Of a DNA stretch of 41,133 bases, positions 2,042 to 22,841 are shown in pieces. The notes under the pieces are model-generated. The model was not told the DNA's origin, did not search any database, and saw nothing but the letters and a program-made list of their open reading frames with translations. The position numbers were made by a program, and so were the translations under genes. The stretch is taken from NCBI GenBank assembly GCA_903919075.1, contig CAIXGR010000051.1, positions 1 to 41,133 of the forward strand, in the 5' to 3' direction. How positions within the stretch are numbered: the first letter of the stretch is position 1; every line of letters begins with the position of its first letter. Source of the DNA: an uncultured Bacteroidota bacterium (lineage in GTDB: Bacteria > Bacteroidota > Bacteroidia > Chitinophagales > LD1).

Positions 2042-2854
2042 ATGCTAACAAAAGATATTTCAAACATCATTTACTTTGTGCAAGCAAAAGGAATTAATCC
2101 TGCTGAACCGAGTTGCGCATTGGCGGCCAGACTTGCTGAAGCCGAGTCGATTACCAAAACCAATCTTTTAGTTTATGATTTTGAGTTGAATAAACTCTTT
2201 TTCGCCAACGAAAGAGCCTCATCTTTTCTTGGCGTGGAAAAAATGACACACAACAATCAAGACGATTCGTTTATTGAAAACATACTACACCCTGTTAGTT
2301 ACCAATTACTTCAACTTAATCCAAGATTAAGACAGCGACAAACCGAAGACCTTTGCGGCGTCTTTTATTTAAAAACGCAGGGAAAGGGAAAATATGGATG
2401 GGTTTATGCTACAGCAAAAGTGATAAATTATAATGCAGCCGGAGTACCAAAACTTATTTACATCTGCTTTCTTGAAGTTGAACGTGCAGTTGAATATTAT
2501 CTCAAATTCATTCGCAATGCATCTACTACCGGCGAGGAAACACGTGTAGTTGAGTTGATGGGCACATTGAAAGACCGTGAAATGGAAATGCTAAGCTTGA
2601 TTGCAGATGAATGTACATCAAAAGAAATAGCTGATAAATTAAGTATTACCCAAGCGGCTGTAGATGCTGCAAGAAAAAGGCTTATTAAAAAGCTGAAAGT
2701 AAAATCTGTGGTTGGATTGGTTAAAGTAGCAGTGGCATTAGGTTTAACAGGAAAAGGTTCGCTACATACACCTTACGCGCGTAATTTAGGTCGACATAGA
2801 AGAACTGTTTCAAACAACTTTAAGGTGCCTGCTAATAGAACGCCCGATGCTTAA
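2042..2854 (+). CDS. PAS-like / LuxR-type HTH transcriptional regulator
   Basis: The 270-residue protein has a C-terminal GerE/LuxR helix-turn-helix at about residues 175-234, with LKDREMEMLSLIADECTSKE, IADKLSITQAAVDAARKRL and the typical LKVKSVVGLVKVA end. Residues about 40-145 resemble a PAS fold (LLVYDFELNKLFFANERAS ... GWVYATAKVINYNAAGVPKL), so it probably senses a ligand or partner. There is no receiver domain and no signal peptide, so it should act in the cytoplasm as a one-component or partner-controlled DNA-binding regulator. The basic tail after residue 235 (YARNLGRHRRTVSNNFK) is unusual. It follows a long non-coding region and stands alone; its targets may be the divergent secreted-protein pair, but that is only proximity. 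The 3' neighbour is convergent. Confidence 0.88.
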   Translation: MLTKDISNIIYFVQAKGINPAEPSCALAARLAEAESITKTNLLVYDFELNKLFFANERASSFLGVEKMTHNNQDDSFIENILHPVSYQLLQLNPRLRQRQTEDLCGVFYLKTQGKGKYGWVYATAKVINYNAAGVPKLIYICFLEVERAVEYYLKFIRNASTTGEETRVVELMGTLKDREMEMLSLIADECTSKEIADKLSITQAAVDAARKRLIKKLKVKSVVGLVKVAVALGLTGKGSLHTPYARNLGRHRRTVSNNFKVPANRTPDA

Positions 2855-2890: not shown

Positions 2891-3784
2891 TTAATGCTGA
2901 TTGAGTATAAAGATTGTAGAAAAACAAACAATCATAGATAGCGAAGAAAGCATAGTCATTCGCATAGCATGTGCAAAATCTGCACTTGATTTATCCCTTA
3001 AAGTTATTGTAAACCAATACAAGAAATACACTACTACTGGAAATAGACATCCACTGAAAATAAAAAACTGCCCTACGCCATAATAGCTAGAAAAGTAATA
3101 ATAGCTAATTGCAGAGGCCAACAGAAACAATAGTGCTGAAAAAATAAAAGTGCCTATAACTCCTAATTTATAACTAATAGTATAGTCTCCTCTCCTGCTA
3201 TCTTCATCGTGCTGATATATTTGTGTTAGCGGATAAAAACCGCCGATTAGCAACGACGCAATAAGCATACAAGCTATATTTTTATTGTCGAACCATTGTG
3301 TATTAAAGTTATTCTCGCTGCACATATTTACTATCATAAAAGTGAATGCTCCTTGAAATGTTATAACTATCAACCAACTTAGTATTGCGTATTTTTTAAG
3401 GCGTATGCCCCGCCAGCTATATGCTTTAGACACCGCAACGTATAAAAGCATTAATAGCAATAGCCACATATTTACAAACAGACACAATAACAACCCTATG
3501 GTATCCATTATAATACTGGCATTGTACAACTTAATGGTAGCCGGTGGTGGATTTTTCAGCCCACCTATACTACCTTTATCGTTATCCATATAGCTATTGT
3601 ATACATTACTACCAGGATAGATGAAAAAATGAAGGGATATAAAAACAATAAGGGTGTTCATCCAGTTAATGGTTACTGACTGACTTATTGCAAAGCAAAA
3701 AATAGGAAAAAGGAATAATGAAAACGGTATGCGTAGATGTATAATAGTATCTCTGTCGAAAATATCGGTAATATAATTTCTCAT
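2891..3784 (-). CDS. UbiA-family membrane prenyltransferase
   Basis: A 297-residue polytopic membrane protein with about eight hydrophobic segments. Both Asp-rich regions expected of UbiA-type aromatic prenyltransferases are visible: NVYNSYMDNDKGSIGG (about residues 60-75, with Asn63, Asp67 and Asp69) and YPLTQIYQHDEDSRRGD (about 184-200). These coordinate Mg-diphosphate of the prenyl donor. It is transcribed divergently from the type III PKS operon, so it most likely prenylates the phenolic product of that operon; donor and acceptor cannot be read from the sequence. A less likely alternative is a role in respiratory-quinone synthesis. The spacing of the first motif differs slightly from classical NDxxDxxxD. 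Confidence 0.88.
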   Translation of the reverse strand: MRNYITDIFDRDTIIHLRIPFSLFLFPIFCFAISQSVTINWMNTLIVFISLHFFIYPGSNVYNSYMDNDKGSIGGLKNPPPATIKLYNASIIMDTIGLLLCLFVNMWLLLLMLLYVAVSKAYSWRGIRLKKYAILSWLIVITFQGAFTFMIVNMCSENNFNTQWFDNKNIACMLIASLLIGGFYPLTQIYQHDEDSRRGDYTISYKLGVIGTFIFSALLFLLASAISYYYFSSYYGVGQFFIFSGCLFPVVVYFLYWFTITLRDKSSADFAHAMRMTMLSSLSMIVCFSTIFILNQH

Positions 3785-3817
3785 GGCACACTAATTGCGT
3801 TGTTTTTCATTAAATTG

Positions 3818-3847
3818 CATAAGTAATACTTCTGTTTCGAATACAAA
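3818..3847 (-). promoter_or_regulatory. Bacteroidetes-type promoter for the UbiA-family gene
   Basis: On the minus strand TTTG (3844-3847) is followed by exactly 18 bp and then TACTTATG (3818-3825), a 7/8 match to the -7 consensus TAnnTTTG. The start codon is at 3784, giving a short leader. Confidence 0.55.
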
Positions 3848-3917
3848 TCACCCATCAGAAAGTAAATATAGAGAATAGTGCGTTGAACAGATTTTTATTC
3901 ATTAAAGCAAACTGAAA

Positions 3918-5033
3918 GTGTCACCATCAATATTCGCAATCGGAACGGCCGTTCCACCTTACAAAATATCACAGCTGTTACATTGCTCAATTTTAGAGTC
4001 GGCAGAAGGAATTGGCAGAAGAGAAAAACTACAATTGCGCAAAGTGTATCATAGTAGTGGTATTACAACTCGCCACAGTGTGCTTGAAGAATTTGGGCGA
4101 ACCGACCAAACAGAAAATATTCTTTTTTATCCCTCCAATCATCATGCATCAATGCCCATTTCACGACGAATGGCTTTGTACGAACATTACGCATTGGGCT
4201 TGTCGGAAAAGGCTGTAACAGAATGTTTAGAGAAATTGCCTTTAATAAAGCCAAATCAAATCACACATTTAATTACGTTCAGTTGCACAGGCATGTCGGC
4301 ACCTGGTTTAGATATACAACTTATCGAAAAATTAGGTTTAAATAGAACTATAGAAAGGACTTGTATCAATTTTATGGGGTGCTATGCGGGCATCAATGCC
4401 ATTAAATCGGCATACCACATTAGCCGGTCGGAACCTGAAGCAATAGTGTTATTGGCTGGAGTTGAACTTTGTACGTTGCACTATCAGCAAGGAGATAAGG
4501 AAGACCAGATTATTGCCAATGCTATATTTAGCGATGGTGCTGCAGCATGTATTATCTCCGAAAAAAAAATACAAACTGCTAATAATTCTCTATCACTACA
4601 ACCTAAAAACTTTTATTCGGCCTTTGAACCGGGAGAGAAAGAAGAGATGGCATGGCGCATAGGCGACCATGGTTTTGACCTTCGACTTAGTTCATATGTA
4701 CCTGCCCTTATTAAAAAAAGCATACCTGACTTTATGTCAGAGTTATTTAATCGGGCAAACGTAAAACAGGAGGATATAGATTTTTACGCGTTCCATCCTG
4801 GCGGCATGAAAATATTAGAAGCTTGCGAGGAAGCCTTACATATATTAAAGAAAGAGAATGAAATTGCCTATCGTGTATTAAGTGAATATGGGAACATGTC
4901 TTCAGTAACTATATTTTTTGTATTGAAACAGTTTTTGGAATTCTTCAAACCGGAAGATATTGGCAAAAAAATACTGGCCTGTGCTTTTGGGCCAGGGCTT
5001 ACTATGGAGTCGATGATTGCAGAAATTGCCTAA
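3918..5033 (+). CDS. Type III polyketide synthase (chalcone/stilbene synthase-like)
   Basis: A 371-residue thiolase-fold synthase of normal family length. It condenses an acyl-CoA starter with malonyl-CoA and cyclises the chain to a phloroglucinol, resorcinol or pyrone. The complete catalytic triad is visible: Cys155 in INFMGCYAGINA, His293 in FYAFHPGGM and Asn326 in YGNMSSV. The N-terminus IFAIGTAVPPYKISQ is typical. The start is GTG: an in-frame TAA at 3903 rules out any upstream ATG. The methyltransferase gene follows after 9 bp and the FAD oxidoreductase overlaps that gene, so the three form one operon. By analogy with Streptomyces SrsA, an alkylresorcinol or alkylpyrone product is plausible, but chain length and starter cannot be deduced. 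Confidence 0.93.
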   Translation: MSPSIFAIGTAVPPYKISQLLHCSILESAEGIGRREKLQLRKVYHSSGITTRHSVLEEFGRTDQTENILFYPSNHHASMPISRRMALYEHYALGLSEKAVTECLEKLPLIKPNQITHLITFSCTGMSAPGLDIQLIEKLGLNRTIERTCINFMGCYAGINAIKSAYHISRSEPEAIVLLAGVELCTLHYQQGDKEDQIIANAIFSDGAAACIISEKKIQTANNSLSLQPKNFYSAFEPGEKEEMAWRIGDHGFDLRLSSYVPALIKKSIPDFMSELFNRANVKQEDIDFYAFHPGGMKILEACEEALHILKKENEIAYRVLSEYGNMSSVTIFFVLKQFLEFFKPEDIGKKILACAFGPGLTMESMIAEIA

Positions 5034-5042
5034 AAAATAACC

Positions 5043-5756
5043 ATGACTGACCTCTCTATACGCTCCTCTCTTCCCGAAAAAATGGATCAGGCAGATGAAT
5101 CGAAAGATGAAACCTTAAAATCTTTGAGCGAAATTGAGACCATTAATAAATGGTTAGGAGGCTATAATGTTATAATTAATGCATTTGAAAAATTGGAGTG
5201 GCCAAACCGAACTGTAACTATTGTAGATTTGGGAAGCGGGGGTGGCGATACCTTGCGTGTAATTGCTAAGTGGGCAAAAAAAAATAACAAATCGGTTAAA
5301 CTAATTGGTATCGACAGAAATCCTGTAATGACCGAATACGCTACCAGCCGCTCTCAGGCTTTTGGCAACCTTATATATATGACAATGGATGTTTTTGATC
5401 CAAAGCTTTTGGATATAAAGGCTGATATTACCATGAACTCACTTTTTTGCCATCATTTTAATAATGATGAGCTAACCCGGCTGATGGGCAATATGTACAA
5501 GATTGCCTCGCATAGTGTAATCATTAACGATATTGACCGGCATTGGTTGGCTTACTATTCCATTAAATGGATTACAGCTTTATTTTCAAAAACCTATATG
5601 GTTAAGTACGATGCTCCTCTATCGGTAGCCCGTTCACTAACAAAACGGGAATGGCAGTTAATCATGCAACAAGCCGGCATTAAAACTTATTCGCTACAGT
5701 GGATGTGGGCATGGCGCTGGCAAATTATTATTCGTAAACCCGAAGTGCATGCCTGA
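5043..5756 (+). CDS. Class I SAM-dependent methyltransferase in PKS operon
   Basis: A 237-residue methyltransferase. Motif I is IVDLGSGGGDTLR (about residues 60-72), and the acidic residue after beta-2 that binds the SAM ribose is Asp91 in LIGIDRNP. SLFCHHF (about 138-144) lies in the motif IV region. There is no signal peptide; cytoplasmic. It sits 9 bp after the type III PKS and overlaps the FAD oxidoreductase by 8 bp, so translation is probably coupled. Its substrate is inferred to be the phenolic PKS product, comparable to SrsB in the Streptomyces phenolic-lipid operon. O- versus C-methylation cannot be told from sequence. Confidence 0.9.
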   Translation: MTDLSIRSSLPEKMDQADESKDETLKSLSEIETINKWLGGYNVIINAFEKLEWPNRTVTIVDLGSGGGDTLRVIAKWAKKNNKSVKLIGIDRNPVMTEYATSRSQAFGNLIYMTMDVFDPKLLDIKADITMNSLFCHHFNNDELTRLMGNMYKIASHSVIINDIDRHWLAYYSIKWITALFSKTYMVKYDAPLSVARSLTKREWQLIMQQAGIKTYSLQWMWAWRWQIIIRKPEVHA

Positions 5757-6915
5757 TAATACTTCAGCTTCAAAAAATACTTTTGACATAATAATTGTTG
5801 GCGGTGGCCTAGCCGGCCTGGTTTCGGCTATACTTTTAAGCCGCAAGAATAAAAAAGTACTATTAATAGAGAAGAAAGCATATCCTTTTCACAGGGTTTG
5901 TGGTGAATATATAAGTAATGAAGTGCTGCCATTTTTAAAGTCCTTGGGTTTCGACCCATATATATATGGTGCAGTTGCCATTAACAAATTGCTCATTTCA
6001 ACCCCATCTGGCAAAAGTGTTTACCCGCCGCTTGGACTTGGAGGCTTCGGCTTAAGCCGTTATACTATGGACCAAGCCTTGTTTGAATTGGCCAAAAAAA
6101 GTGGTGCTTTTATACTGACAAAAACAAAAGTTGCAGATGTAGCTTTCGAAAACGATGCATTTATGGTAACCACCAACAACAGTGAAACATTCTTTGCCAA
6201 AATAGTAATAGGCAGTTATGGCAAACGCGATACGCTTGACAAACAATTGAACCGAAAGTTTATACAAACGCATACCGGCTACCTGGGTGTAAAGTATCAT
6301 ATCAAAACAGATTACCCGGCAGATGAAATTGGACTGCACAATTTTGAACAAGGCTATTGCGGTATCTCGCGCGTTGAAAACGATACCTATAATTTATGCT
6401 ACCTCTACCATAGAAAGAATAATGCAAAAATTAAAGATATAGCTAATATTGAACAAAATGTTCTTTTCAAAAACCCAGTGCTTAGGGAAATATTTTCCAA
6501 CTCGGAATTTCTGTTTGATAAACCTGTGGTGATTAATGATTTTTCGTTTGCGCCAAAATCTTTGGTTGAAAACCATATTTTGATGTGTGGCGATAGTGCG
6601 GGGTTGATTACCCCTTTGTGCGGAAATGGTATGAGCATGGCCATACATGGAGCTAAACTACTTTGCGATTTGATAATTGAAATGAGCGTTCTGGATAGCG
6701 ATATTATTAATTTACATCAAAGAGAGGTTTTAGAGAATCTGTATGAAAAGGAATGGAGTAAAAATTTTAAAGCAAGGTTATTTTGGGGAAGAACTATTCA
6801 AAAGCTATTCGGCAATAGTACAATTACGGGAATGAGTATTAGAAGCATTCATGCAGTGCCGCCTTTGGAAAGATGGTTGATTGGAAAAACTCATGGCAGC
6901 GTAATAAATGTTTAA
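5749..6915 (+). CDS. FAD-dependent oxidoreductase / aromatic hydroxylase-like (geranylgeranyl-reductase superfamily)
   Basis: The 388-residue flavoprotein starts with a Rossmann FAD motif, DIIIVGGGLAGLVSA (residues 13-27), with acidic Glu41 for the adenosine ribose. HRVCGEYIS (about 48-56) and the second FAD motif LMCGDSAGLITPLCGNGMS (Asp282) are typical of the PHBH/geranylgeranyl-reductase superfamily. It ends the PKS operon with an 8-bp overlap. By analogy with SrsC it may hydroxylate the methylated phenolic ring on the way to a quinone. Reduction of an isoprenoid chain is the main alternative, given the nearby UbiA gene and the superfamily name. The last about 30 residues are basic and could be membrane-peripheral. 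Confidence 0.87.
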   Translation: MPDNTSASKNTFDIIIVGGGLAGLVSAILLSRKNKKVLLIEKKAYPFHRVCGEYISNEVLPFLKSLGFDPYIYGAVAINKLLISTPSGKSVYPPLGLGGFGLSRYTMDQALFELAKKSGAFILTKTKVADVAFENDAFMVTTNNSETFFAKIVIGSYGKRDTLDKQLNRKFIQTHTGYLGVKYHIKTDYPADEIGLHNFEQGYCGISRVENDTYNLCYLYHRKNNAKIKDIANIEQNVLFKNPVLREIFSNSEFLFDKPVVINDFSFAPKSLVENHILMCGDSAGLITPLCGNGMSMAIHGAKLLCDLIIEMSVLDSDIINLHQREVLENLYEKEWSKNFKARLFWGRTIQKLFGNSTITGMSIRSIHAVPPLERWLIGKTHGSVINV

Positions 6916-7092: not shown

Positions 7093-9471
7093 ATGATAAA
7101 AAAACTACTCTGCTGTCTTATAGCCACTTTTTTATTAAGTATTATTTTTCCAAACCATACATTATTAGCACAGGGCACTTGGACCCAAAAAGCCAGTTTT
7201 TCCGGAGGTGGCAGAGTATATTCAACCTATTTTGCAGTTAAAGGAAAGGGGTATATCGGGTTTGGTGATTATACTAATCCGAATGACCTTTGGGAATTTG
7301 ACCCCGCCACAAATGCATGGACCCAAAGAGCTTCAATACCAGGCGAGTCGGGAAGAGCAGAAATGCTGGGGTTTGCCATTGGAAATTATGGTTATGTTGG
7401 GTTGGGGTTATCTACAACGGGACAAGATGATAACGGTTTTTGGAAATTTGACCCTTCATCAAATACATGGTCGGCTATAGCTTTTTGGCCAGATGACTGG
7501 ACACGTGGTGCATTTGCATTTGTAATTGGCAATGATGCATATGTTGGTTCAGGAAGTGCAGATACTATGACACATTTTTGGAAATACAATTTAGTGAACA
7601 ATGCATGGACCCGAAAAAACAACATACCCACTGCTGCAGTACGTTATTTCGGTATTGGTTTTGCAATTGGCAATAAAGGTTATGCGGCCATAGGTGTTGG
7701 CGCCGACGGCAGTACTGCCAAAAACGACCTTTGGGAATATAACCCTGATACTGATAGCTGGACTCAAAAAGCAAATTTTGGGGGAGGAATAAGAGTAAAC
7801 GCAGTTGGTTTTGCCAGCGCATCAAAAGGGTATATTGCCACTGGGCACAATAATCTGGGCAGCTACTTTAATGACTTTTGGGAATATAACCCTGGAACAG
7901 ATACCTGGACGCAAAAAGCAAATTACCCTGGGCCAGGCTTGCTTGCCGGTGCCGGGTTCTCAATAGGTTGCCACTCATATTTAGGTTTGGGCGATACCCC
8001 GCCACCCGGTTTTATACCTCAATCAGATTTTTGGCAGTTTACTAATGATGCAGCATCCTCGTTATATGTTACTGCAGATACTACCATTTGTCCGGGCAAT
8101 CCGGTTGCACTAACTGCAAATGGGGGTGTATCTTATCTATGGAGCCCCTCCACCGGATTAAATACAATAAATGGAGCAACTGTAATTGCTACACCAAATA
8201 ATTCTATTGCCTATACTGTTACCGACACTTCTATAAGCGGGTGCAATGCATCTGCCACCGTTAACATTACTATTAGTTCGGGTGATACAGCAAGTGTTTC
8301 AATTCAGGCAAACCCTACCGGCACAGTTTGCGCCGGAACGCCCATTACTTTTACAGCATTACCGGTAAACGGCGGCAATCCTTTATACCAATGGAAAGTA
8401 GGTGGCCTTAATACCGGAACCAATAATTCTGTTTTCACTTCAAGTTCACTTAGCGATAGCAATATAATTACCTGCATAATGACTTCAACAGCCAACTGTG
8501 TAAGTGGTTCGCCTGCAACATCAAATTCAATTATTGTAAATATAGCTCCTGGTCCAGCAGCAGGAACAATAACAGCCAGCAGCGATACAATTTGTACCGG
8601 TAGCCCTGTTCACTTGGTGGATGGGGGAAGCTCAGGGAGCATTCAGTGGCTAACATCTTTAAACGGAACTTCGTTTACCAATATCGCTGGTGCTTCATCA
8701 ACCACTTACGATACTTCAAGCTTAACTGAAACCACTTACTATTTTGTAACTGCAAGTGGAAGTTGTGGTACCGATACTTCTAATACAGTAAAAATATTTG
8801 CTGCTCCATTGCCGGCCCCCATCCTCTCTGCCACTGATTCCATTTGCCCCGGCGATTCAACACAAATATGCGAAGTTACCGCCTTTAGCGGGTACCATTG
8901 GAACACCGGTGATAGCACATCGTGCACATGGGCCAATCAAGCCGGTGGATATTGGGTTATTGTAACCGATGCTAATGGATGCATTGCGGTTTCTGAGCAT
9001 CAAAATGTTTTAACTTATTCCACTCCTCAAGTTTCAATAACTGTTCATGGAGATACTTTATCTACTGTCAATGCGGTTTCAAGCCAATGGCTTTTAAATG
9101 ATACAATTATACCCGGAGCAACTTCGAATATTTATATAGCGCACGAAACAGGAAATTATTCAGTACGGGTAGCTGATGCTAATGGTTGCACAAATGAATC
9201 GATCGCAACGCGCATAGTTATAAGTGGTATTGCAAAGTTTTCGGATGATGCTGACTTGAAAATTTATCCTAACCCTGCTTCCAGTATATTAGTTATACAA
9301 GCAAAAGATTTTTCTGCCGCCGAAATTTTGGTTTTTGATGTAACCGGTAAATTAGTAATGAAAGAAAAATTTACGCCACAACTTAACATTAGTGATTTAC
9401 AATCCGGTATTTATTTAATAGAACTACAAAGCAATTTTGCAACTGCCAGAAAGAATTTTTTGAAATTATAA
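7093..9471 (+). CDS. Secreted kelch-repeat / Ig-like protein with T9SS sorting domain
   Basis: The 792-residue protein begins with a clear signal peptide (cleavage near LLAQ|GTW, residue 27). Residues about 28-316 carry six kelch repeats, each ending in a form of (D/G)FWxFxPxTxxW (for example NDLWEFDPATNAW), which implies a six-bladed beta-propeller. Several Ig/PKD-like modules with paired cysteines follow (TICPGNPVALTANGGVSYLW; TICTGSPVHLVDGGSSGSIQ; SICPGDSTQICEVTAFSGYH). The last about 75 residues form a type A T9SS C-terminal domain (KIYPNPASSILVI ... VFDVTGKLV ... LQSGIYLIEL). It should be exported by Sec, then T9SS, and attached to or released from the cell surface. Ligand unknown; a carbohydrate- or protein-binding role is inference. 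Monocistronic by position. Confidence 0.92.
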   Translation: MIKKLLCCLIATFLLSIIFPNHTLLAQGTWTQKASFSGGGRVYSTYFAVKGKGYIGFGDYTNPNDLWEFDPATNAWTQRASIPGESGRAEMLGFAIGNYGYVGLGLSTTGQDDNGFWKFDPSSNTWSAIAFWPDDWTRGAFAFVIGNDAYVGSGSADTMTHFWKYNLVNNAWTRKNNIPTAAVRYFGIGFAIGNKGYAAIGVGADGSTAKNDLWEYNPDTDSWTQKANFGGGIRVNAVGFASASKGYIATGHNNLGSYFNDFWEYNPGTDTWTQKANYPGPGLLAGAGFSIGCHSYLGLGDTPPPGFIPQSDFWQFTNDAASSLYVTADTTICPGNPVALTANGGVSYLWSPSTGLNTINGATVIATPNNSIAYTVTDTSISGCNASATVNITISSGDTASVSIQANPTGTVCAGTPITFTALPVNGGNPLYQWKVGGLNTGTNNSVFTSSSLSDSNIITCIMTSTANCVSGSPATSNSIIVNIAPGPAAGTITASSDTICTGSPVHLVDGGSSGSIQWLTSLNGTSFTNIAGASSTTYDTSSLTETTYYFVTASGSCGTDTSNTVKIFAAPLPAPILSATDSICPGDSTQICEVTAFSGYHWNTGDSTSCTWANQAGGYWVIVTDANGCIAVSEHQNVLTYSTPQVSITVHGDTLSTVNAVSSQWLLNDTIIPGATSNIYIAHETGNYSVRVADANGCTNESIATRIVISGIAKFSDDADLKIYPNPASSILVIQAKDFSAAEILVFDVTGKLVMKEKFTPQLNISDLQSGIYLIELQSNFATARKNFLKL

Positions 9472-18412: not shown

Positions 18413-20320
18413 TCAATTCCATGAAATGATAACCTGGCCGTTGCCAGTTTGCGCACCTTGCTGGCTATTTTGGTTAGCACCGCTGTTGTATGAGCCACCA
18501 CCACCGCCGCCACCGCCAATACCCGAACCAGAGCCACCACCACCACCGGTGTACCCTCCTCCCCCGCCGCCAGATTGGTAACTATAACTTACACCATTAC
18601 CACCGCCACCGAAACCTCCATAACTGTTATTGGAATTGCCATAGCTGACTTGGTAACCGCCATTTCCGCCATTAACATAAGATAAAGCGGCAACTGGGCT
18701 GTTTTGGCCTGCACCGCCATTGCCAGTGAAGCCAGCTCCACCACCGCCCCCTAACCCACCACCATAATTGCCATCTTGTCCATTGCAACAAGTACCGCCG
18801 CCACCGCCGCCGCCTGCGTAATAACCACCGGTGCCTGAGTTACCCCCGTTATTCGCGGTGCCGCCTGTTGAAGTATTTCCTCCAGAGCTATTTCCGGCAT
18901 TAACAGTAGTTAAACCTGGTCCACCGGCAACCAAATCGCCACCACCGCCGCCGCCGCCGGCAATAATTAAAGGATTGCCTGCGTATACCACAAATGTTCC
19001 TCCGCCCCCGCCTCCGCTGCCCTGGTCTGGCGGATTAGCGCCTGCCTGCCCAACTAAAATACTTAATTGCTGGCCTTGTGTAAGGTTAAAATCACCTTGT
19101 ACAAATGCACCGTATCCGCCTAGTGTTGCCGAATTCCCCCCCTGTGCACCATAAGCCTTAACAGTATAAGTGGCGGTTACCGGTGCAGTAAAAGTTTGTA
19201 TGCTACCTGTATAACCATTACCGGTGGCCGTAAATAATTGCGCCTGTATATTTATAACCTCTGTTTGTGCAGCACTTACACCACAAGGATTATTAGCTGA
19301 AACTGACAGACTTCCGAAACCAGATGAATCCCATGTTATATGTACAGAATCTGTACCCTGGCCGGATGTGATAATGCCTAAGAAAGCTGTCCATTGATAA
19401 TTGGCCACGTTGGGCAATGGGCCAATTGAATAAATGGCGGAGGAATTAAGGCTATCGTTGGTAGGCCCTGTAATAGCACCAGGCTGGCCAGCCGCCATAG
19501 GATAATAGGTAGCCGTAACTGCCGTGCGGGTAGGGGTAGTACAGCCGTTGGCACTAGCATCAACATAATAAGTAGTGTTTGAATTAAGGCCTGCAACCGT
19601 AAAGGAAGCGCCCGATGACAACGACGACCCTCCGGTAGGAGCATCGTACCAATTAATAGTACCCAAATTGGCCGAAGCACTTAAAGTTACTGCACTACCA
19701 CTACAAAATGCCGAGGGTGTGGTACCGGTAATTTCAGGAACAATATTTACAAGCATAATAAGGCCATTAGAAGTAGCCGGCGAACCGGTAACACAGGAAA
19801 CGCTTGATGTTAATATACAATTCACAACATCGCCATTATGTAAAGTTGAATCAGTAAAAATTGCACTATTGGTGCCCATGTTATTTCCGTTCACCTTCCA
19901 CTGGTATGAAGGTGATAAATTATTTTGACTAGGTGTTGCGTTAAACGTTACCGTACTACCGGCGCATATAGCACCAATGGGATTTGCAGAAATGGAAACC
20001 CCAGCCACTAGTGCGTTGCTTGAGTTTAAAGTAGACCAGTTAGGAGAAGATGGAGTACCTGCGTTGAAATTATATACGTGGCAATCGGTATTAAAAATTG
20101 TAAGGCCCTCTGCAGGCTTGTTAATCGCATCGCGCTGAGCCGTATTCATACGGAGCATTAACTGCCCCTTGCTGCTTGAGTTTACATCTAACACAGCTGA
20201 ACTATCGGGAAGGGTCCCGGCAGCGTTAATGGCTACTCCTCCGGTTTGTGCATTTACTTTTAAATTAAACACTACCAACATTACAACTAACGAAATAGAT
20301 AAGAAGTATATTTTTTTCAT
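18413..20320 (-). CDS. Glycine-rich secreted surface protein (intact paralogue)
   Basis: A 635-residue protein: signal peptide (IYFLSISLVVMLVVFNLKVNAQ), then the opening DSSAVLDVNSSSKGQLMLRM, Ig/PKD-like modules (ISANPIGAICAGSTVTFNAT; ITGTTPSAFCSGSAVTLSA; GAITGPTNDSLNSSA), and from about residue 370 a glycine-rich domain (FTAPVTATYTVKAYGAQGG ... long GGGGGG stretches) ending NGQVIISWN. This is the glycine-rich domain organisation often annotated in Bacteroidetes surface proteins. It lacks a T9SS domain. It is the same architecture as the broken gene at 10121-11867 and lacks that gene's long homopolymer. It is convergent with the helical protein gene, 21 bp away. Confidence 0.88.
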   Translation of the reverse strand: MKKIYFLSISLVVMLVVFNLKVNAQTGGVAINAAGTLPDSSAVLDVNSSSKGQLMLRMNTAQRDAINKPAEGLTIFNTDCHVYNFNAGTPSSPNWSTLNSSNALVAGVSISANPIGAICAGSTVTFNATPSQNNLSPSYQWKVNGNNMGTNSAIFTDSTLHNGDVVNCILTSSVSCVTGSPATSNGLIMLVNIVPEITGTTPSAFCSGSAVTLSASANLGTINWYDAPTGGSSLSSGASFTVAGLNSNTTYYVDASANGCTTPTRTAVTATYYPMAAGQPGAITGPTNDSLNSSAIYSIGPLPNVANYQWTAFLGIITSGQGTDSVHITWDSSGFGSLSVSANNPCGVSAAQTEVINIQAQLFTATGNGYTGSIQTFTAPVTATYTVKAYGAQGGNSATLGGYGAFVQGDFNLTQGQQLSILVGQAGANPPDQGSGGGGGGTFVVYAGNPLIIAGGGGGGGDLVAGGPGLTTVNAGNSSGGNTSTGGTANNGGNSGTGGYYAGGGGGGGTCCNGQDGNYGGGLGGGGGAGFTGNGGAGQNSPVAALSYVNGGNGGYQVSYGNSNNSYGGFGGGGNGVSYSYQSGGGGGGYTGGGGGSGSGIGGGGGGGGSYNSGANQNSQQGAQTGNGQVIISWN

Positions 20321-20420
20321 GACCCGAATTTATTTGATTAGATAAATGTAGTGAAGAATGTGGAAATAACCCTTTTAGTCTTTCAAGTACAAAATATGGA
20401 CTTTGTCCTTTCAGCTTCTT

Positions 20421-20768
20421 TTACTTCTTTTTCTTTTTTGGCGTAGCCTTTGCCTTTTTATTAAACTCTAACGCAAAGCCTAACCAGTAATCGAGTTGCT
20501 TTTTAGTTTTTATTACATTTTCGTGCACCATTATATAGCCTTTATAAGGCTTACCTTTCATTTCCATGGTACGGCAGCCGGGCTGTGCAATAAGTGTTTC
20601 ATGCAGTGCATGGTCTATACGCAACATTAACTCATCGTTACCGGTGCTTACACACATTTTCCCGTCTACCATAAACAACACACCTCTAAACATTACCTTC
20701 TCTTCTACTTTGGGGACATTGGCAAATGCTTCTCGCACCCGTGCGGTTAATTTTTCGTTATGCGCCAT
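20421..20768 (-). CDS. TfoX/Sxy N-terminal-domain protein
   Basis: The 115-residue cytoplasmic protein matches the TfoX N-terminal domain: EKVMFRGVLFMVDGKMCVST, LMLRIDHALHE, and a C-terminal LDYWLGFALEFNKK, with a lysine-rich tail (ATPKKKKK). In gammaproteobacteria TfoX/Sxy promotes competence together with CRP, but single-domain TfoX-N proteins in Bacteroidetes have no established role and are often linked to general stress or transcription. The basic tail could help contact nucleic acid; this is inference. Isolated gene. Confidence 0.85.
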   Translation of the reverse strand: MAHNEKLTARVREAFANVPKVEEKVMFRGVLFMVDGKMCVSTGNDELMLRIDHALHETLIAQPGCRTMEMKGKPYKGYIMVHENVIKTKKQLDYWLGFALEFNKKAKATPKKKKK

Positions 20769-20827
20769 ATAATTTTGCTATTAGGCAAGTTACAAAAAAA
20801 TGTTTTAGGTGGTTAGGGTAGCCATAT

Positions 20828-22741
20828 TTAGTGGCAGTATTGTTTAATCAAACCACCGGCGTATTTATTTCCCAACTCCATTGCTTTTTGCCAGTCGGTA
20901 CAGGCATTTTGCATATCATTAAGCTCCTTAAACGCATTACCGCGCAGTAAATAAGCCACGTCTTCTTTTGGCGATAGGTTTATTAATAAATTATATTCAT
21001 TAACGGCCCCATGCAAATCACCAAGGCGCGCCTTTAAGGCGGCTATATTATACATTGGCTTTTTAAAATCGGGCTGTGCAGCAATAGCTTTAGTATAATT
21101 TTCCAAAGCTGAATCAACTACGCCTGCTTGGTCGTATGCCCAACCTATATTGTTAAGCGCCTCAGCATATAGCGGTTTTATGGATACAGCCTTCCGGTAA
21201 TCATCCATGGCTGCATTTTTATTACCGGTCTGGTAATAAATCCAACCCCGGTTGTTATATGAATCGGCTTGCTTTGGATTTAATTTTATTGATGTGGTGT
21301 AATCAACCACGGCGGCTTTTAAATTACCTAACTGGCTGTTTACCCTACCTCGGGTAAAATAAGCATCTTCAAAAGTTGGATTCAATTCAATAGCTTTTGA
21401 ATAATCAGCGAAAGCCGGGTTTAAATTACCTTCTATTTTTTCAGCGTTTCCCCGTAGCCAATATCCAAAATATACATTGGGGTTCTTTTCTACCAGGTCG
21501 TTAAAAAGGGTGTAGTCATTTTTCCATACATCAATTCTATTCCATATTATAACTGAAAATATAATTATATAAAACAGAAAAACACTTAAGGCTAAACCTT
21601 TAAATTTATCGAGCTGAATATATTTTGCAGCTAATATTCCTATAATATAAAACAACCCGATATAGGCGATATAAGGATAATGTTCTGACACAAAGCCGGA
21701 ACCTACTGACACAATTTGGAGCATTACTGAAATGGCTACAAAGAAAAAAGCCACCCCAAACCATATTTCTTTTCGGTATACATTTTTGCGAACTACCATC
21801 CACGCAATGGAAAGAACAACCGGTAACGATAAATAATAAATCCACGGCAAAAAACCATTTTTAAGTGCCGGAAAATAATGCGTTGTACATAGCCATACGG
21901 GTGCCAGTAGCCATGTAAAATAAAAAGCAATACCAGATGTAAACATAAAAAAACCATTAACCGGGCCGTACGAAACCATTAAGGCATTATGGGCACCAGC
22001 CTCGCGTTGCGAAATGATGGCTATTACTCCAAATACTATAGATAAAGCAACAAGAGGAGTTTTTTCTGCTATTGAGCGGAAGGATAACTTTCTTCCTTTA
22101 TAAAAATCAATTACAAACAATAATACCGGAAGGGTAACAGCTGCAGATTTACACAACAGTGATACTAAAAAAAGTGCCGCTACACCAGTATAGTATACCA
22201 ACCGGTAACCCGAAGACAAATAGCGTAAATAAACCAGCAGCGACAGCAAATAAAAAGACGCATATGAAACATTTTTTAGCTCGGAAACCCAAACTACTGA
22301 TTGTACATTGAGAGGATGCAGCGCAAATAAAATGGCTACCACCAAAGCAATAAAACTTTGGCCGCTCAGCCGTTGGGTTAATTTAAAAACAAGTGCAATA
22401 TTGACTAAGTGAATCAGCACGTTTAATAAATGGTACGATACCGGATTAAGCTCGAAAAATTTATATACCACTAAATAAACAAGCATGGTAATGGGCTGGT
22501 AGTGGCCTACATAGTACGAAGTGAAAATTGTTTTGACGCCGTGTAAACTGAAATCGCGAATTGCAGGATTATTAGTAACATAAAAATCATCATCGAAACT
22601 GGTTAGGCTGCAAAATGCTGCTTTGCTATAAAGTATGGCTGTAAACACTAACAAAGCGGGCAGGGCCCAATTGGGAATGGCAACTACATCCTTATTTATC
22701 TTCTGCTTAGTGTGTGCTTTTTTATTTTGTTTACCTGACAT
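20828..22741 (-). CDS. TMTC-like polytopic membrane protein with C-terminal TPRs (possible protein O-glycosyltransferase)
   Basis: From ATG 22741 the protein is 637 residues. The first about 410 residues are a multi-span membrane domain with signatures of the TMTC/PMT-like GT-C family: SFDDDFYVTNNPAIRDFSLH (acidic loop after TM1), YVGHYQPITMLVYLV, and FALHPLNVQSVVWVSELKN. Residues about 420-637 carry about six TPRs (AFADYSKAIELNP, AAVVDYTTSIKLNP, AAMDDYRKAVSIKP, SALENYTKAIAAQP). In animals TMTC proteins O-mannosylate cadherins; the bacterial versions are mostly uncharacterised. A TTG at 22804 would extend the frame, but it lies in the T-tract of the upstream gene's terminator, so ATG 22741 is preferred. 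The gene follows the giant PKD protein on the same strand but is separated from it by that terminator. Confidence 0.86.
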   Translation of the reverse strand: MSGKQNKKAHTKQKINKDVVAIPNWALPALLVFTAILYSKAAFCSLTSFDDDFYVTNNPAIRDFSLHGVKTIFTSYYVGHYQPITMLVYLVVYKFFELNPVSYHLLNVLIHLVNIALVFKLTQRLSGQSFIALVVAILFALHPLNVQSVVWVSELKNVSYASFYLLSLLVYLRYLSSGYRLVYYTGVAALFLVSLLCKSAAVTLPVLLFVIDFYKGRKLSFRSIAEKTPLVALSIVFGVIAIISQREAGAHNALMVSYGPVNGFFMFTSGIAFYFTWLLAPVWLCTTHYFPALKNGFLPWIYYLSLPVVLSIAWMVVRKNVYRKEIWFGVAFFFVAISVMLQIVSVGSGFVSEHYPYIAYIGLFYIIGILAAKYIQLDKFKGLALSVFLFYIIIFSVIIWNRIDVWKNDYTLFNDLVEKNPNVYFGYWLRGNAEKIEGNLNPAFADYSKAIELNPTFEDAYFTRGRVNSQLGNLKAAVVDYTTSIKLNPKQADSYNNRGWIYYQTGNKNAAMDDYRKAVSIKPLYAEALNNIGWAYDQAGVVDSALENYTKAIAAQPDFKKPMYNIAALKARLGDLHGAVNEYNLLINLSPKEDVAYLLRGNAFKELNDMQNACTDWQKAMELGNKYAGGLIKQYCH

Positions 22742-22800
22742 ATTCTTCAATATGGATAATGAACCGATTGGTGCTAAGTTGATATTTTTAATGTGAAATA

Positions 22801-22841
22801 GCAAAAAAAACGCCCCCGTGGAAACCCACGGGAGCGCACCC
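22801..22841 (-). terminator. Intrinsic terminator of the giant PKD-protein gene
   Basis: On the minus strand CGCTCCCGTGG and CCACGGGGGCG pair (10 Watson-Crick pairs plus one T-G wobble) around a 4-nt GTTT loop. Eight T follow. It starts about 25 bp after the stop codon at 22867. Confidence 0.88.

Follow-up and report, generated by a model that had tools for sequence, protein, structure and literature searches.

A four-gene type III polyketide synthase locus with a variant UbiA-family gene, widespread in Bacteroidota and predicted to direct the synthesis of a prenylated phenolic lipid

Operons that join a type III polyketide synthase (PKS) to a methyltransferase (MT) and an oxidoreductase are known, and those described in the papers cited here make alkylresorcinols or alkylquinones. 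In the SrsABC system of Streptomyces griseus (Funabashi 2008, as cited in PMC10896814 and PMC9927152), the type III PKS is joined by a methyltransferase and a hydroxylase, and alkylquinones result. The polyketide quinone operon pkqABC occurs in Mycobacterium smegmatis and Streptomyces sp. MNU77 (PMC9927152, PMC8730385), while the hidABC hierridin operon and its relatives in Planctomycetota, trios of methyltransferase, oxidoreductase and type III PKS, lead to alkylresorcinol products (PMC10896814, PMC8086630). A related locus was analysed here in a stretch of 41,133 nucleotides, hereafter the window (contig CAIXGR010000051.1, positions 1 to 41,133, assembly GCA_903919075.1), from an uncultured member of the Bacteroidota (Chitinophagales; LD1), whose genome is 99.6% complete (97 contigs, 3.53 Mb). 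It consists of PKS, MT and flavin adenine dinucleotide (FAD)-dependent oxidoreductase genes on the plus strand and a divergent gene for a UbiA-type membrane protein on the minus strand, and all four open reading frames (ORFs) are intact. The four genes probably act together in a single pathway whose product is a phenolic lipid with a prenyl chain and a decorated ring. They are best read as a widespread Bacteroidota variant whose predicted product is a prenylated quinol derived from an alkylresorcinol.

The trio of the window has, by description, the same three enzyme types as SrsABC, which a first-pass annotation of this DNA had taken as its model; the model holds for the enzyme set, and the polyketide quinone operon of mycobacteria and Streptomyces is as close. 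To our knowledge, SrsABC includes no prenyltransferase. By gene content the window also resembles pkqABC, in which these three enzyme types likewise form one operon. The two differ in the additional gene, since the word "prenyl" occurs 0 times in the main texts of PMC9927152 and PMC8730385 and no prenyltransferase is reported there. The hidABC group shares the trio types, mostly in another gene order, and one Raphidiopsis hierridin-like cluster adds a prenyltransferase, an enzyme that the cyanobacterial study did not find in any further cluster of the clade.

In Actinoplanes missouriensis, the agq cluster reportedly combines a UbiA-like enzyme with monooxygenase and methyltransferase genes and, by the title of Awakawa 2011 (doi 10.1002/cbic.201000628), is said to yield alkyl-O-dihydrogeranyl-methoxyhydroquinones. 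In this reported gene content the window agrees with it, having UbiA-type, type III PKS, MT and oxygenase genes. The likeness extends to the products, those of the type III PKS AgqA being described as prenylated and hydroxylated (PMC10896814). Because such prenylated products are known, the four-gene kind is not undescribed, and the initial view that a product of the prenylated kind had not been described for this set had to be given up. The difference lies in distribution: agq is an actinomycete cluster, whereas the four-gene set studied here is widespread in Bacteroidota. Among the genes given for the los locus of Micromonospora, a type III PKS is likewise accompanied by UbiA, as well as by methyltransferase and acyl-CoA dehydrogenase genes. 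In marine Flavobacteria, UbiA-297/EboC farnesylates quinolines (PMC9235831); it resembles the window protein as a UbiA-like enzyme with a distinct Asp-rich motif and differs from it in its ebo-cluster setting and in the motif itself, which is similar to DxxDxxxD. The four prenyltransferase groups reported in that paper are MenA, EboC-like, GGGP synthase and CtaB, and the subfamily of the window is not among them by name. No Bacteroidota variant with its own UbiA subfamily was described in the titles and abstract openings listed by searches of open-licence literature, a body that leaves most subscription journals outside. In a paper on Fulvivirga kasyanovii, one type III PKS cluster is listed and close MIBiG homologues are given for the arylpolyene and siderophore clusters only; another strain of this species has all four genes at the locus (L187). 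The trio and its prenylated products are thus of a known kind.

The four-gene neighbourhood was searched for from both sides. With up to about 6 kb taken on each side, 80 PKS loci were compared, 6 from the window's own family and 74 from its class (the class gave 75 PKS matches beyond the window genome, of which that in G232 was left out). All four genes occur together in 58 of these loci, and the remainder have UbiA and PKS (5), UbiA, PKS and MT (2), PKS, MT and FAD genes (4), PKS and FAD genes (1) or PKS alone (10); UbiA accompanies the PKS in 65 of 80. Six genomes whose PKS stretch lacks UbiA (G068, G087, G187, G217, G271 and G350) have the UbiA gene elsewhere. The commonest order is UbiA-PKS-MT-FAD in one direction (33 loci), followed by the divergent arrangement of the window (13) and FAD-UbiA-PKS-MT (9). 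A clear PKS is present in 7 of 30 genomes of the window's own family, and in all six besides the window genome the four genes are arranged divergently as in the window, the FAD gene of one (L065) being read as two ORFs. From the other side, at least 580 stretches in a collection of titled genomes encode a relative of the window UbiA protein. The best 80 of them bear 78 Bacteroidota names, one plain "bacterium" (L171) and one Azovibrio (L156), the last a metagenome-assembled genome that was read as misbinning and kept in the count. Within the stretches examined, all four genes were found in 46 of these 80 loci and a PKS in 68, while UbiA stands alone in 11 and with MT in one; all 11 genomes with a lone UbiA gene carry a PKS elsewhere (461-508 bits). 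As 7 loci are common to both sets, the four genes stand together in 97 different loci besides the window, and the UbiA gene is conserved beside the operon in relatives, the opposite of what the first-pass annotation had named as evidence against its proposal.

Co-inheritance was assessed in 345 genomes of the class with thresholds of E 1e-40 for the PKS and E 1e-25 for the UbiA alignment. A PKS was found in 76 and UbiA in 74; 68 genomes have both, 8 the PKS only, 6 UbiA only and 263 neither. Fisher's test on this table gives 2e-55, a value to be taken as description and not as a probability, the genomes being related. All eight PKS-only genomes have a weaker kind of PKS, with 31-34% identity. 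Under stricter thresholds (E <1e-50 for PKS and <1e-80 for UbiA) there are 66 genomes with PKS and 67 with UbiA, 65 of them shared. The three exceptions are G081, with UbiA in pieces, G257, with a PKS fragment of 92.5 bits at a contig end, and G312, which is 61% complete and has a weak PKS. The strict cut removes ten genomes with a weak PKS (G143, G232, G235, G260, G266, G302, G312, G331, G349 and G370) and seven with a weak UbiA match (G039, G067, G081, G092, G141, G173 and G349).

The UbiA gene (2891..3784, minus strand) was assigned by Pfam (57.4 bits; curated cut-off 34.2), alignment, predicted fold and tree to a variant subfamily of the UbiA-superfamily intramembrane prenyltransferases. 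Canonical members of this superfamily have the motifs NDxxDxxxD and DxxxD. The window protein carries N60-x-x-N63-S64-x-x-D67-x-D69 and Q188-x-x-Q191-x-x-x-D195 in their places, and N63, S64, D67, D69, Q191 and D195 are identical in 45 of 45 aligned rows. Both Asp-rich motifs had been reported at first; what is present is a fixed variant, NSxxDxD with QxxxD, in all 45 rows, and since the canonical motifs are not found the protein is filed only as a variant subfamily. In its AlphaFold2 model (predicted local distance difference test score, 96.6) the protein has the UbiA fold, which makes it a predicted member of the superfamily. The best structural match is AfUbiA of Archaeoglobus with dimethylallyl diphosphate (DMAPP) and Mg (4tq4; Z 23.1, root-mean-square deviation 3.5, 271 aligned), and Foldseek found 7bpu at E 1.9e-6.

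The same variant motifs were found outside the class. A sample of 395 genomes of the phylum yielded UbiA relatives in 45 at E 1e-40, 19 of them from a single family, f91, of another class. These proteins are distant from that of the window (140-158 bits), and all eight inspected retain NSxxDxD and QxxQxxxD. No PKS was found in eight stretches around the UbiA genes of this family; a type III PKS is nevertheless present in all 19 genomes (370-443 bits), followed by MT and FAD genes at 10 of 10 PKS loci. Upstream of the trio, all ten of these loci (L324-L333) have a MATE-transporter-type gene, one of which was checked by profile. Within the window's class, five genomes (G039, G067, G092, G141 and G173) combine a weak UbiA match with no PKS at E 1e-10, and in all five the UbiA relative is altered in its motif or incomplete. 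Motif letters are replaced in G039, G067 and G141; the gene of G173 is truncated, with the first motif missing, and that of G092 is represented by its first part only, with a nearly intact first motif (NG for NS). In three of the five corresponding loci (L277-L279 of L276-L280) the adjoining gene encodes a protein of about 955 amino acids. Retention of the UbiA active site where the PKS is retained is the strongest evidence that the UbiA protein acts in this pathway. Neighbourhood, phyletic pattern and decay in the absence of the PKS together bear out the proposal that the UbiA gene is part of one pathway with the PKS operon.

The altered motifs bear on the reaction. The UbiA-fold protein might act on the PKS product as something other than a simple aromatic prenyltransferase, using another phosphorylated donor or performing cyclisation or reduction, with a non-prenylated or cyclic terpenoid as the product. 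The replacement of Asp by Ser in the first motif and by Gln in the second, fixed in 45 of 45 rows and kept in the other class, would fit this, as would the presence of a membrane phosphoribosyltransferase (8j8j, Z 17.1) among the structural matches and the single NCBIfam match of the window protein, at 20.2 bits against a cut-off of 248. However, N63, D67 and D195 are retained, the top structural match is the DMAPP-bound enzyme (Z 23.1), and isopentenyl-diphosphate isomerase and YceI genes lie near some of the loci. In addition, the printed alignment shows Ser opposite Q191 in chlorophyll a synthase, a solved structure, so that this Asp is not universal. A different reaction is on these grounds unlikely. 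Prenyl donors exist in the host, as its genome contains three prenyl diphosphate synthase genes.

A role of the UbiA gene in primary quinone or heme metabolism, with its position here due to chance, is hardly credible. The window protein did not match the MenA profile TIGR00751 at E 0.001 or the heme O synthase (CtaB/CyoE) profile TIGR01473, and the EboC profile NF035940 was absent both from its matches and from the 19 NCBIfam families matched by the 45 members. Some of these 45 cassette members do match MenA-type profiles weakly, one of them TIGR00751 (E 6e-4), and the MenA of the window genome likewise has KG in its first motif, points that would favour such a role. But MenA and CtaB are encoded by separate genes elsewhere in the genome (L003, 274 bits with a cut-off of 102, and L001, 260 bits with a cut-off of 210), and the association with the PKS is strong even where the genes are unlinked. 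In a tree of 53 rows, made by a quick method and containing long branches, MenA and CtaB form separate groups (support 99 each), and the cassette proteins lie together, apart from both. Union of the cassette proteins with those of the other class was neither supported nor rejected (approximately unbiased test, p-AU 0.133); the paralogue rows L306 and L308 were counted outside, though they fall on the cassette and other-class side of the tree. As far as sequence can tell, the protein is neither MenA nor heme O synthase and the primary-metabolism explanation is refuted; the grouping with these enzymes that had been named in advance as fatal to the proposal does not occur. For the 14 control genomes the search used the Pfam family as a whole and not this UbiA subfamily. 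Another UbiA protein of the window genome is nearest to GGGP-synthase models, below their cut-offs, and an odd member of the family on contig C25 (L005, 1243-2103) passes no NCBIfam model; the ORF adjoining the latter resembles SGNH hydrolases by eye.

The PKS gene (3918..5033, plus strand, GTG start) encodes a type III PKS by domain and alignment evidence, with Chal_sti_synt_N and Chal_sti_synt_C at 79.8 and 83.5 bits (Pfam cut-off 27 each). The Cys155-His293-Asn326 triad is intact, as originally noted, and invariant in 40 aligned rows. The solved structures nearest by sequence are 4b0n, which we take to be Ectocarpus PKS1, a chalcone-synthase-like protein, PKS18 and Steely1. Trp246 is also invariant in the 40 rows, and of 171 PKS rows that have a residue at this position, among them that of the window, 170 have Trp. 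This residue presumably sits at the place of chalcone-synthase Gly256, and through it would correspond to residue 281 of ArsB, which itself is outside the alignment. ArsB Trp281 is reported to be associated with resorcinols and a glycine in ArsC with pyrones (PMC9927152), and the PKS of pkqABC is reported to have Trp at the ArsB-281 place. Trp246 may accordingly be read, by inference, as a marker of the resorcinol type. It did not serve to set PKSs accompanied by the other genes apart from those that are not, nearly all of them having Trp.

Were the enzyme to make alkyl-alpha-pyrones in place of resorcinols, the pathway would lead to methylated or prenylated pyrones. PKS18, which is reported to form long-chain alkylpyrones in vitro (PMC8730385), is indeed among the nearest solved structures, yet in the printed alignments both PKS18 and 4b0n have Leu where the window enzyme has Trp246. 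A partner of the flavoprotein hydroxylase kind would make little sense for a pyrone. With the presumed equivalence to ArsB Trp281 also speaking for resorcinols, a pyrone product appears quite improbable.

Type III PKS matches also occur on plasmids (189 records, of which 6 were inspected). The trio was found on plasmids of Psychrobacter, Falsirhodobacter, Deinococcus, Roseomonas and Paludisphaera, the FAD and MT genes of Psychrobacter being on the other strand, and in Microbacterium, where the PKS is unannotated and matches in two pieces. On the Psychrobacter urativorans plasmid 5 (49 kb, Antarctica; L225) the encoded PKS shares 45% identity with the window enzyme, and no UbiA gene was found in the stretch. 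A UbiA protein of the window type had no match on plasmids at E 1e-5.

The MT gene (5043..5756, plus strand) begins 9 bp behind the PKS gene, which ends at 5033, and overlaps the FAD gene (5749..6915, plus strand) by 8 bp (5749-5756); the ORF coordinates agree with the first-pass annotation on both distances. It encodes a class I S-adenosylmethionine-dependent methyltransferase (Methyltransf_25, 36.6 bits; Pfam cut-off 27) nearest to PRK06202, at 126 bits and below the cut-off of 243, which a relative in the other class passes with 275 bits. The FAD-dependent oxidoreductase (FAD_binding_3, 38.7 bits; Pfam cut-off 22) has, from profiles and fold, the fold shared by PHBH, halogenases and geranylgeranyl reductases, and is predicted to be a ring hydroxylase or quinol-forming oxidase. 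Its best NCBIfam model, at 97 bits against a cut-off of 158.8, is that of the geranylgeranyl-reductase superfamily. The top ten matches of its fold search (Z 34.9-36.0) mix halogenases with 3-hydroxybenzoate 6-hydroxylase, and a geranylgeranyl-reductase-like protein comes next (Z 32.1), which leaves hydroxylase, halogenase and reductase undecided.

Class A aromatic hydroxylases such as PHBH and UbiH have the motifs GxGxxG, DG and GD. In the flavoproteins of the cassette GxGxxG and GD are invariant and the Asp of the DG motif is absent in 39 of 39, which places them, by sequence, outside the classical NAD(P)H aromatic hydroxylase subfamily, though the fold is of that superfamily. In the other class the DG motif is present in all five FAD proteins inspected, and for the two that were scanned the best models are of the monooxygenase and UbiH-type hydroxylase kinds, below their cut-offs. 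The FAD protein of the Deinococcus plasmid trio is likewise of the classical hydroxylase type, and that of the Falsirhodobacter trio is geranylgeranyl-reductase-like. The occupation of one slot by two flavoprotein subfamilies supports ring oxidation as the task of this enzyme. Reduction of the prenyl chain by the flavoprotein was considered and is less probable, because in other loci this position is taken by a flavoprotein of the classical hydroxylase type.

In the proposed pathway the type III PKS, an intact enzyme, would extend a long-chain acyl starter with malonyl units and form a 5-alkylresorcinol by aldol condensation. The flavoprotein would hydroxylate or oxidise the ring towards a hydroquinone or quinone, and the methyltransferase would methylate an O or C position. 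The UbiA protein, with a site for prenyl diphosphate in the membrane, would attach an isoprenyl chain to a phenol oxygen or to the ring; its place in the scheme follows from fold and co-inheritance, and the reaction, the length of the donor and the order of steps are predicted. The result would be a quinol of high lipophilicity that resides in the membrane and functions as a prenylated polyketide quinone does, possibly with a redox, antioxidant or envelope role. Of the earlier proposal, the view that the four genes form one pathway including the UbiA gene is supported; the product and its envelope or quinone role are still a matter of prediction.

The pathway is carried by about one in five of the sampled genomes of the class (74 of 345 by UbiA, 76 of 345 by PKS). 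The fact that UbiA and PKS are kept together over class boundaries, and that the UbiA site has degenerated in genomes lacking the PKS, speaks for a lipid with a physiological function in the membrane and not for an occasional antibiotic. The pathway gives a testable claim about what sits in the membranes of these Bacteroidota besides menaquinone. In a bolder and rather doubtful reading, Bacteroidota might possess a second membrane quinone that is widely inherited. It would be a polyketide quinone carrying a prenyl chain, its synthesis would depend on a UbiA subfamily dedicated to it and marked by a catalytic signature of its own, and it would serve alongside menaquinone, either as another electron carrier or as an antioxidant of the membrane.

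Genes with a connection to isoprenoids were found near some of the loci. An iterated search of the flanks of the 65 loci in which UbiA and PKS are linked gave YceI-family genes in 13, short-chain dehydrogenase/reductase genes in 7, isopentenyl-diphosphate isomerase genes in 5 and MATE genes in 2. YceI proteins bind polyisoprenoids. Every copy of the YceI gene lies on the UbiA strand, three of them within 31 bp; the window genome has three YceI genes in 3.53 Mb, so about 1% of 13-kb stretches would be expected to contain one, the loci compared being related. The isomerase genes are also always on the UbiA strand, and the one checked scores above the TIGR02150 cut-off.

Several points weigh against the pathway proposed here. 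Its product is a predicted one. By profile no solved UbiA is close to the UbiA protein (best E 0.0014), and the difference of the motif from the canonical one means that the reaction is not certain. The Asp that classical hydroxylases have in the DG motif is missing from the flavoprotein, and as the methyltransferases of published trios methylate C or O, either kind of site may be methylated here. Plasmid trios of other phyla have no UbiA gene in the stretch, so UbiA is not needed for the trio there. Among the class genomes, G349 was counted as having both genes with a weak PKS match and a UbiA protein whose first motif is altered, the gene being cut by a contig end. The genomes of f91 were chosen by their UbiA, and the PKS was sought in those only. 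As regards the isoprenoid neighbours, YceI also occurs in 2 of 15 PKS loci without UbiA, which weakens the link; in the titled UbiA set YceI is found in 6 of 80 loci and the isomerase in 0 of 80, and both counts are 0 in the 24 stretches L310-L333, 20 of which are from f91. Both genes are confined to a minority of loci, and neither was found beside the cassette of the window.

The divergent intergenic region (3785..3917, 133 bp) had been credited with a promoter belonging to the UbiA gene. The Bacteroidota consensus consists of TTTG or TTG, a spacer and TAnnTTTG, and a search of the 133 bp gave no exact match to it, only weak -7 boxes with one mismatch, so the claim did not stand. In an all-against-all comparison of 552 flank ORFs no fifth gene was shared by every locus; the biggest cluster, from 15 loci and with a phytochrome-type sensor kinase as an example, looks mixed. 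In one genus of the window's own family (L067-L070), the cassette lies near genes for a phytochrome-type kinase, a heme oxygenase and a 3-deoxy-D-arabino-heptulosonate 7-phosphate synthase-chorismate mutase, one of each having been checked with Pfam; in this genus the cassette may thus be under the control of light. One relative (L066, 8163-10886) has DNA repair genes of the Ku and LigD types directly beside its cassette. In the window, a LuxR-type (GerE) regulator gene (2042-2854, plus strand) is convergent with the UbiA gene, with 36 bp between their ends. Large proteins with kelch, Ig-like, PKD-like and TPR domains are encoded close to the cassette (7093-9471, plus strand, and 18413-22804, minus strand), and the kelch protein bears a type IX secretion sorting domain.

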